Below, piece after piece: positions 22,237 to 24,975 of a stretch of DNA of 64,000 bases. The DNA comes from Enterococcus saccharolyticus subsp. saccharolyticus (GTDB lineage: Bacteria > Bacillota > Bacilli > Lactobacillales > Enterococcaceae), in the NCBI RefSeq assembly GCF_029023825.1, contig NZ_CP118957.1, positions 1,217,501 to 1,281,500 on the forward strand. The letters run 5' to 3'. Under the pieces are notes generated by a model, which was given only the letters and a program-made list of their open reading frames with translations, made no database searches and was not told the DNA's origin. How positions within the stretch are numbered: the stretch's first letter is position 1; each line of letters starts with the position of its first letter. The position numbers were made by a program, and so were the translations under genes.

Positions 22237-22252
22237 ACGCACCTCGTTTTTT
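22223..22252. terminator. bidirectional terminator overlapping the yibE/F stop
   Basis: Perfect 13-bp stem AAAAAACGAGGTG / CACCTCGTTTTTT with loop AACG. It can also end transcription of the minus-strand PucR remnant. Confidence 0.92.
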
Positions 22253-22407
22253 TATGTTTTTGGGTATTGTTTGTGTAATTTTAACGCAAAAGCTAGGTTA
22301 AAAGCTACAGAAGGTGTTGTGAGTGAATATCCCAAGAGTGTTTCAATTTTTTCAATACGATAAAGCAACGTATTGCGATGAATAAACAGAAGACGAGAGG
22401 TTGCAGC
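22252..22407 (-). pseudogene. PucR/CdaR-type regulator remnant, C-terminal HTH only
   Basis: Only about 50 residues remain: LAATSRLLFIHRNTLLYRIEKIE...LGYSL then the final helix FNLAFALKLHKQ. That is the C-terminal helix-turn-helix of PucR-type regulators, which normally have several hundred residues upstream. The coding sequence breaks off at about 22407, exactly where a plus-strand ABC-F remnant begins. Confidence 0.78.
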
Positions 22408-23362
22408 TAAATAGTGAAAGATGGAAAAGAAACGGAATACAAAGGCAATTACGATGCTTATCTGCAACAAAAAGAGCATGGAAAAATTAGCCAAGAATAT
22501 GCGTATCACGAATATCAAAAAGAAGTAACTCGCTTAACCAAAGGCATTCAGGAGAAGAAACAAAAAGCAGCGCAAGCCGTGAAAATTTCAGATAAAAAGA
22601 AAAAAACAAAACGTACGACCAGACCGTTTATCATCTTCAAAACAAAAAGATACGGTACAAAAAAATCTGTATAAACAGGCGAAAGCAATGCATTCTCGCT
22701 TAGAGCAATTAAAAGAAGTTCAAACAGTTGATTGCTTGACAACCATTAAATTTCCAAAACATGAGACAGCAGCAATCCACAATCCGTATCCTTTACGAAT
22801 TGAAAAACTGTCGATTACATATGAAGGTAAAATCATTTTAGATGAAATAGATTTTCAATTGCCCTTAGGAAAAAAAGTTGCCATCGTCGGTGCAAATGGT
22901 GCCGGAAAATCAACTTTCTTGCGTGCTATTTTGACGCAGCACTCAAGTGTTATCGTGTCGCCAAAAGCCCAAATAGCCACCTATCGTCAGATGGATTATA
23001 AATTCACGAGTCAACAACCGTTATTACGGGCGCTAATGGCAGAAACCGATTGGCCAGAAGGAACGGTTCGTTCGTTGTTACACCATTTAGGCTTTACACA
23101 AGAAGAAGTGTTAAAACCATTAGCTGTTTTAAGTGGTGGAGAAGCGACCAGAATAGCAATTGCGCAGTTGTTCACTCGACCATCTAATGTGCTACTTTTG
23201 GATGAACCGACGAATTTTATTGATTTAGTCACCATTCGGGCGTTAGAACTCTTTTTAACTGAGTATGACGGCACGGTTTTATACACGTCACATGATGCTC
23301 ATTTTATTGCGCTTGCTGATGAAGTGTGGAAACTAGAGAATGGCAAACTGATCCAGCAATGA
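22408..23362 (+). pseudogene. ABC-F ATPase remnant (antibiotic-resistance type), N-terminus lost and frameshifted
   Basis: It starts mid-protein at VKDGKETEYKGNYDAYLQQK, the end of the first ABC domain of ABC-F proteins. It continues through the linker and the second ABC domain with Walker A GANGAGKST, signature LSGGEATRI and Walker B VLLLDEPTNFID. The whole first ABC domain is missing. A second lesion in the A-rich tract near 22600 shifts the frame: correcting it restores a linker ending KQAKAMHSRLEQLKEVQ. The layout resembles Lsa/Vga/Msr ribosome-protection proteins. The remnant should not be functional, although an ORF for the second domain begins at 22688. Confidence 0.85.
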
Positions 23363-23446
23363 AAAATATCGCTATTTTAAATTTTTTCTTGCAAAAAACA
23401 AACGTACGTTCTATTCTGTAAGTAACATAAAATAAGGAGAGTCGCG

Positions 23447-24115
23447 ATGAAAACACCGTTAACGATTCAAATGGAAGAAAGTCTGTATTATTATTGTCGT
23501 GAAAATGGCGATATTGTGATTGAAGAAGTAACTATGCCGGAGGAACAAGGAATTGTGGATACGTTGAGTTGTCGCTTAGATGCGATGAATCAATTTGAAT
23601 GGCGTTGTTATGAATTAAAAGTCAGTAAAGCAGATTTTCGTTCAAAAGCAAAGTTATCGTTTGTGGGTCATTACAATTATTTTGTGTTACCTGAAAAATT
23701 ATATCTCGCTGTTCAAGATGAAATTCCTAGTCAAATTGGTGTGTTGGTGTATCATTCGTATATTAACGAAGAAATTGGCGTACCGGGCTATTTTACAACA
23801 GCTAAAAAACCACAACGCCAAGCATTGCAAGTAAACGAACATGAATTACTTTATCGTTTGATTGCTTCTCAAGCTCGTGAAGTTGGCAAGGCTAAAAAAA
23901 CAGCGCGTGGTTTACGTGTTTTTAGCACCGAACAATTATACAAAGAATTGAAGCGACGACAACCAGAATATGATTTATTTGGGGGAGGAGTCAATTACTA
24001 TGACCGCTTTATTGAAGAGATACAGTCACAAGCCGTTGAAACCTTAAAAGAAGAGCTAGAAGCAACTCGTACCGCTTATTTTGAATTGGAAAAACGTTGG
24101 TTGGAGGGAAAATAA
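23447..24115 (+). CDS. MmcB-like protein with PD-(D/E)xK nuclease fold
   Basis: 222 residues. D38 (GIVDTLSCRLD) followed by E56-L-K58 in CYELKVSKADFRSKAKLSF and then HYNYFVLPEKLY is the pattern of the MmcB/restriction-endonuclease-like fold. The C-terminal third is basic and helical, possibly DNA-binding. AAGGAGAG precedes the ATG. Its stop overlaps the start of the next gene by one base (TAATG), so the two are coupled. MmcB proteins are linked to DNA repair, but this two-gene setting suggests a specialised nuclease module. Predicted activity only. Confidence 0.75.
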   Translation: MKTPLTIQMEESLYYYCRENGDIVIEEVTMPEEQGIVDTLSCRLDAMNQFEWRCYELKVSKADFRSKAKLSFVGHYNYFVLPEKLYLAVQDEIPSQIGVLVYHSYINEEIGVPGYFTTAKKPQRQALQVNEHELLYRLIASQAREVGKAKKTARGLRVFSTEQLYKELKRRQPEYDLFGGGVNYYDRFIEEIQSQAVETLKEELEATRTAYFELEKRWLEGK

Positions 24116-24975
24116 TGTATTATCCGTATTTTCGTGGAAAGCAGTTTGATTTAATTGCCTTGCGTACGTTGTTAGAAGACAATCGTTTATCCAAAAAAAT
24201 TCAACCAATTATTGAACCGGTGAAACAAACGACAGCATTGACTAAATTGCTAGAGACAAGCCAACAAACAGCCCATCCATTTTATATTATTCAGAATCCA
24301 CAAGTCGGTGCATTTGCTACAGAGAATGGGTTAGCAACACTACGTCAATTACCAACTCAAAAAGCGTATTTGTTGGATCAACCATTGGAAACGCTAGAAA
24401 CGACGGCGACAATGATGATTGTCCAACAAGCAACTCCCGCGTTAGCGAGTGAATGGACTGTTTATGAAGGGAAAGTCTTAGTTCCTGAAGAATTTCGGTT
24501 ATTGCAAAAAGTGCGTGGTGAACGGATTTTATCAGAAGATGTTTTTACACGACTTCCACGCACGCATTTTTATCAGGAACAGCCCGATGAACTTTTTTCA
24601 ACGACGCATCAAACCTACCAGAAAAAAGGGTTTGCAGGGTTTAGTGACTTCTCAATTGATAGTCGTATTTATTATGAACACGGGTATCCAACGCCAATAC
24701 TAAGTCTACATCTTGTCTATTTTTCTGATGAACAATTGCGAATTCATCACTTTTTATCACCAGAAGAACTACCGTCACAAAAAGAAAAATTCTTAGCGTT
24801 AATGCTAGAAGTCGATCGTTGGCTCACAAAATTATGTGGTACAAAACCGACAAAAGGGTTAGAATTATTGCTAGAAAATGCCGCAAAAGACAAATTTCCA
24901 GGAATGGGTGTGATGCGCAAAGCCGCCGTCATGCATCATTTGGAACTAATGAGCCGGTATTTAGATGGGAGATAG
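24115..24975 (+). CDS. sce7725-family protein (beta-protein-like fold)
   Basis: 286 residues. The start MYYPYFRGKQFDLIALRTLL and the nearby IQPIIEPVK are the hallmark of the sce7725 family, related to the phage-type Beta protein family. The ATG at 24115 has TTGGAGGG upstream inside the previous gene. Its function is unknown; relatives are scattered and often lie beside nuclease-fold genes, including sce7726, which suggests a defence or conflict role. The end (MSRYLDGR) appears natural. Confidence 0.78.
   Translation: MYYPYFRGKQFDLIALRTLLEDNRLSKKIQPIIEPVKQTTALTKLLETSQQTAHPFYIIQNPQVGAFATENGLATLRQLPTQKAYLLDQPLETLETTATMMIVQQATPALASEWTVYEGKVLVPEEFRLLQKVRGERILSEDVFTRLPRTHFYQEQPDELFSTTHQTYQKKGFAGFSDFSIDSRIYYEHGYPTPILSLHLVYFSDEQLRIHHFLSPEELPSQKEKFLALMLEVDRWLTKLCGTKPTKGLELLLENAAKDKFPGMGVMRKAAVMHHLELMSRYLDGR

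Follow-up and report, generated by a model that had tools for sequence, protein, structure and literature searches.

Organization of the locus

The window, which is the whole stretch of DNA that we have analyzed, comprises 64,000 nucleotides of the Enterococcus saccharolyticus subsp. saccharolyticus genome (contig NZ_CP118957.1). It contains a pair of overlapping genes, P1 and P2, with a putative LexA operator in front of them and a deletion scar at their side (Table 1).

Table 1. Features of the P1-P2 locus. Positions are those of the window.
Feature	Position	Strand	Description
ABC-F/PucR scar	22252-23362		PucR HTH tail (minus strand) against a truncated, frame-split Msr-like ABC-F gene (plus strand); adjoins the pair, not part of it
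Weak sigma-70-type promoter	23389-23417	+	TTGCAA-17-TATTCT; 8 of 12 consensus positions; LexA box inside the spacer
LexA (SOS) operator-like palindrome	23399-23412		CAAACGTACGTTCT; 14 bases; 48 bp upstream of the start codon of P1; agrees with CGAACRNRYGTTYC at 11 of its 13 specified positions
P1	23447-24115	+	222 aa; TAA at 24113-24115; predicted PD-(D/E)xK nuclease, MmcB/P4-cII-like, long C-terminal helix
P1/P2 stop-start overlap	24113-24117	+	TAATG, from the sequence; one shared base (24115)
P2	24115-24975	+	286 aa from the ATG at 24115; sce7725 family, barrel-like fold, putative distant relative of Beta (PF14350, P4 beta)

An earlier note on this DNA had described a nuclease-fold gene which overlaps a sce7725-type gene by one base, next to a deletion scar, and had suggested a conflict or defence module. 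The overlap and the family of the second gene are both as described. The scar is also real: The PucR tail corresponds to PF13556, and what remains of the ABC-F gene, without its N-terminal part, is broken into two frames (22414-22674 and 22688-23362). The corresponding position upstream of P1 is occupied by a longer ABC-F frame in a sister species (L040). We have considered the scar as a part of the module and have ruled this out: The pair is intact, and it is found in many other contexts without any scar. The scar is incidental and says nothing on the function of the pair.

P1, a predicted nuclease

A Pfam scan of P1 matched no family, and scans of its relatives gave nothing coherent. Among the PHROG families, P1 matches phrog_2776 (function unknown) at 1.5e-25 and, more weakly, phrog_5429, annotated as "DNA repair protein", at 7.4e-6. 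A sequence search of solved structures gave no match for either P1 or P2.

The residues D38, E56 and K58, proposed in the note as a nuclease motif, are invariant in an alignment of 37 P1 orthologues of the pair type. They are still found without exception when phage relatives are added, which makes 40 sequences. The AlphaFold2 model of P1 has a moderate confidence (pLDDT 83). Its core (helix 4-19, strands 23-29, 36-44 and 50-57) has the helix-strand-strand-strand order of PD-(D/E)xK enzymes, and a nuclease fold is thus predicted for this protein. The PDB structures that match the model best include several nucleases of this type (MspJI, SPARDA, Bax1 and LHK-Exo), but all these matches are weak, with a TM below 0.3. 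With a D...E-x-K motif on an alpha-beta core, P1 is predicted to belong to the PD-(D/E)xK superfamily. The description of P1 as MmcB-like stands for the fold and the motif, but not for the family itself: PF06319 (MmcB-like) does not match P1 at E<=1, and it is absent among the 25 families listed for P1 relatives at E<=10.

Solo relatives of P1, with 147-196 amino acids, are found in phages, or in contigs resembling prophages, of Bacillus, Staphylococcus and Enterococcus (L172-L191, L232-L235, L269-L271). They do not have sce7725 nearby, and most of them are without the long C-terminal helix of the pair-type P1. A different case is Enterococcus ratti (L061 8226-9903 and L151 7295-8975), where a frameshift splits P1 into two frames and P2 is still open: a natural example of a lost nuclease with a retained partner.

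P2, a member of the sce7725 family

The sce7725 profile NF033831 matches P2 end to end (residues 2-283 of 286; 1.6e-83; 281 bits against a curated cut-off of 60). The structure predicted for P2 is barrel-like and has a very high confidence (pLDDT 95). When compared with the PDB, it gives only weak matches to barrel-like structures; its one clear structural match is an uncharacterised phage protein. Five residues are invariant in P2: R7, E34, N61, D178 and H199.

There are some indications of a relationship with the Beta family, PF14350. This profile does not match the P2 protein of the window, and it matches 17 of 54 sce7725 relatives weakly (best 2.7e-4). Profile comparison of sce7725 with beta of phage P4 gives a weak 71% probability. 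These results suggest that sce7725 may be distantly related to P4 beta, a relationship which is weak by profile. The few papers that we have found mention sce7725 and sce7726 in passing, and none of their titles or abstracts deals with function; PF14350 is named in no paper found in our literature search.

Pairing and inheritance

The two families nearly always appear together, which is the opposite of the rare co-occurrence that would speak against a functional pair. Among 296 Lactobacillales genomes, sce7725 is found in 55 and P1 in 54, and all 51 genomes with a full-length P1 have sce7725. Three genomes contain only P1, with shorter or partial matches. Four genomes have sce7725 without P1, and sce7726 is the partner in the three neighbourhoods of this kind that we have read. 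P1 is located directly upstream of sce7725 in 38 of 41 neighbourhoods, and sce7726 takes this place in the remaining three, which also have a downstream gene, c44, whose homologues in a larger set carry a RES domain.

The same picture is found in 80 named loci, 52 with P1 and 28 with sce7726, none with both and none with neither; this set includes related genomes and partly coincides with the 41 neighbourhoods. In these loci the choice between two nuclease types beside sce7725, P1 or sce7726, is exclusive and complete. A draw of 398 genomes across the phylum gave eight others with sce7725 (seven sce7726-sce7725-RES triads and a broken copy beside sce7726) and three others with P1, all without sce7725.

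The P1 and P2 trees are congruent (Mantel r 0.94), and the 17 strong splits of the P1 tree are all present in the P2 tree. The pair is near-core in Enterococcaceae (38 of 46 genomes), and the Enterococcaceae and Lactobacillaceae that have retained it carry it in many different surroundings on the chromosome. The sequences indicate that the P1-type pair has probably been inherited vertically for the most part. P1-type operons, also called type B, have no conserved third gene and no toxin gene. One group of loci has a DNA glycosylase and a SRAP gene upstream of P1.

We have also found the pair on a conjugative Enterococcus faecium plasmid, p114-2 (L255 3306-4957), amid metabolic and transport genes. 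Given this single plasmid copy, the pair can move occasionally.

A putative LexA operator at the promoter

The promoter of P1 was not listed by the standard promoter scan, since 8 of 12 positions is below the threshold of the scanner. The position of the LexA box is very regular. Of 57 distinct boxes in front of orthologous operons, 43 have the same geometry from box to -10 as that before P1 in the window (offset 13): The box ends on the base with which the -10 hexamer begins. LexA would therefore cover the promoter.

Boxes with a score of at least 11 of 13 are found at 30 of 38 P1 operon heads and at 9 of 421 other genes of the same loci (Fisher 9e-32, a value computed on related genomes, which are not independent; 31 upstream regions are left when similar ones are removed). 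A second, overlapping set of named loci has a LexA-type box in 40 of 52 P1-type operons, including 10 of 10 that start with a helicase gene. A score of at least 11 is reached in only 2 of 27 sce7726-type loci. About a fifth of the P1 operons, Tetragenococcus included, have boxes with a score below 11.

The pattern CRAACRNRYGTTYK is found at only 17 places of the 2.6-Mb genome, including those before lexA, uvrC and addB, and a related box, CGAATGTTTGTTCG, is located upstream of recA. The P1 box agrees with the published LexA box of B. subtilis and S. aureus, CGAACN4GTTCG (PMC9578287). These comparisons strongly support a putative LexA operator at the P1-P2 promoter, like those in front of lexA and recA in this genome.

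LexA-type boxes also point to other candidate SOS members in this genome: an O6-methylguanine methyltransferase gene (L085 943-1515), a DUF2200 gene with a GNAT gene in divergent orientation (L077 1102-1520) and a gene coding for 179 amino acids without any Pfam match (L074 1501-2162).

A helicase as a possible partner

In 10 Lactobacillaceae neighbourhoods the operon starts with a gene for an XPD/DinG-type (YoaA-like) helicase, with Helicase_C_2 and DEAD_2 domains and an N-terminal Cas4/PDDEXK_1-like region, and in most of them the LexA box is found before the helicase gene. Although this gene opens the P1-P2 operon, with its putative LexA control, in lactobacilli, it is a separate gene with a wider distribution, which includes genomes without P1 or P2. 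Of 46 Enterococcaceae genomes, 44 have it, elsewhere on the chromosome; in the genome of the window it is 39 kb away and has no LexA box. We had expected such a box before the enterococcal helicase: It is present in two Enterococcus genomes that we have examined, but absent in that of the window.

The best PADLOC model of the helicase is type IV DinG, and no CRISPR gene is seen among its neighbours in the loci that we have read. In the genome of the window, the Cas4-like/XPD-type helicase (G000:C1:1199849-1202185, outside the window) matches this model at 6e-129.

In Lactiplantibacillus plantarum the operon is flanked by LysM genes and by a NADH dehydrogenase gene. By this synteny its helicase would be lp_0308, which was reported to rise under H2O2 together with recA, lexA, rexAB and umuC, and is absent from the list of LexA-motif genes given in the same work (PMC2174512).

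Relationship with known systems

A close arrangement is that of the sce7726-sce7725-RES loci (NF033832, NF033831 and PF08808). They have sce7725 directly downstream of a gene of the PD-(D/E)xK type in a tight operon, but the nuclease is sce7726 instead of P1, the third gene codes for a RES NAD+ phosphorylase, and the LexA box is missing (2 of 27, as mentioned above). They are sporadic over the phylum, and some triads are carried by plasmids or by an integrating conjugative element. This sister arrangement is defence-like, and sporadic or mobile. P1 itself is not sce7726: It gives 13.7 bits with NF033832, whose cut-off is 70 bits. Profile comparison gives no convincing alignment of the two proteins (1-18% probability), and we therefore treat them as members of the same fold class, not of one family.

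In the phage P4 record, beta is annotated as "beta family protein" and cII as "sce7726 family protein". The sce7726 protein of the triads agrees with the P4 cII profile at 98.9% probability. The gop-beta-cII locus of P4 protects Escherichia coli from lambda and P1 phages; gop is toxic without beta, which neutralises Gop (PMC9122126). Beta is paired there with a nuclease-like cII of the sce7726 family, and sce7725 would be a distant relative of Beta. Nevertheless, our pair has no gop toxin and no phage or satellite context, its nuclease is not sce7726, and P1 and P2 are co-directional and under putative LexA control. The E-D-E-K core of cII can be aligned with P1 in register, but with a low confidence: At 24% probability, this match is too weak to claim a relationship.

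MmcB of Caulobacter crescentus is a SOS-regulated PD-(D/E)XK nuclease which protects from mitomycin C (PMC9578287). P1 resembles it as a predicted nuclease of this kind under putative SOS control, and by its match to the "DNA repair protein" PHROG; the differences are the missing PF06319 match and a different SOS box. There is also some resemblance with component C of PD-Lambda-2, described as a relative of a P4 phage antitoxin, which one P2 orthologue matches weakly in its N-terminal part (E 0.0057). However, PD-Lambda-2 has HigB-like and Xre-peptidase partners and no nuclease. PADLOC finds no family for P1 and none for P2, and there is no defence system beside the pair within the window.

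Possible function of the pair

We consider it probable that P1-P2 is a LexA-controlled DNA-damage module which takes part in SOS repair. DNA damage would inactivate LexA and free the operator in the promoter spacer, a regulation which the sequence strongly supports. P1 and P2 would then be made together through translational coupling. The P1 endonuclease, whose fold and active site are predicted, might cut DNA with damage or crosslinks, an activity already proposed for MmcB. P2 would bind P1 and restrain or direct it, as suggested by the near-absolute pairing of the two genes, their co-evolution and the putative kinship of P2 with the antitoxin-like Beta proteins; its role in repair may be an antitoxin-like restraint or the aiming of P1. 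In lactobacilli the helicase, first in the operon, would expose the DNA as a presumed partner; enterococci encode it elsewhere.

SOS control alone is compatible with a conflict role too. P1 might be a toxic nuclease which P2, as a Beta-like antitoxin, keeps inactive: With the DNA damage caused by a phage or by prophage induction, LexA would fall and the balance would shift, so that P1 turns on the DNA of the phage or of the host (abortive infection). The relatives of the pair are in line with this explanation, since sce7725 sister loci carry RES genes on plasmids and an ICE, P4 gop-beta-cII is protective, with beta as the antidote of Gop, and solo relatives of P1 are found in phages. In these relatives the suggestion of a conflict or defence module has a real basis, one which the earlier note did not mention. 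The pair itself does not fit so well: It is near-core in Enterococcaceae and mostly vertical, with congruent trees and no toxin gene, it has a putative LexA operator, no PADLOC match and no defence genes around, and several lineages have the helicase and DNA-repair genes as its neighbours. We regard a SOS-triggered conflict system as unlikely, and a plain phage-defence module is also less likely than repair.

Even less probable is an exchange of roles, with P1 a catalytically idle protein or a regulatory DNA-binding adaptor, and the catalysis, on nucleotides or damaged bases, left to the barrel fold of P2. The confident barrel-like model of P2 and its five invariant residues would agree with a catalytic role, but D38, E56 and K58 are kept in 40 of 40 P1 sequences, phage relatives included, and the relatives of Beta have been described as antitoxin-like, not as enzymes. 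As for two chance neighbours without a shared function, left together after a local rearrangement, only the adjoining scar favours this idea. The pair is retained in many chromosomal contexts of two families, and its near-absolute co-occurrence rules the idea out for practical purposes. In summary, a toxin-less pair of a nuclease and a Beta-like protein, acting in the SOS response, is the best reading that the sequences suggest.

The origin of such a module is more speculative. Its starting point might have been a mobile Beta/nuclease conflict system related to P4 gop-beta-cII. In an ancestor of the Enterococcaceae and Lactobacillaceae, this system would have lost the toxin, and its nuclease would have been replaced or have diverged. 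Domesticated under LexA along with the XPD-type helicase, it would now form a new branch of SOS repair. We propose this scenario only tentatively; in this case, a defence module might have become one of repair.

The combination of Beta and a nuclease is already known in kind. The names sce7725 and sce7726 have been taken only from a gene pair, and two aspects are new here: their proposed link to beta and cII of phage P4, and the existence of a branch with a MmcB/cII-type nuclease, a putative LexA operator and no toxin gene, which a large share of the enterococci and lactobacilli carry. A concrete role, that of a SOS-induced nuclease with a Beta-like partner, may thus be proposed for a pair which is common in gut and food bacteria.

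The arrangement of P4 itself is also found outside phages. In several proteobacterial plasmids (L250, L252, L253, L254), Beta-type genes are convergent with genes of the sce7726 family, as beta and cII are in P4: The spread of this plasmid beta-cII arrangement is under-described.
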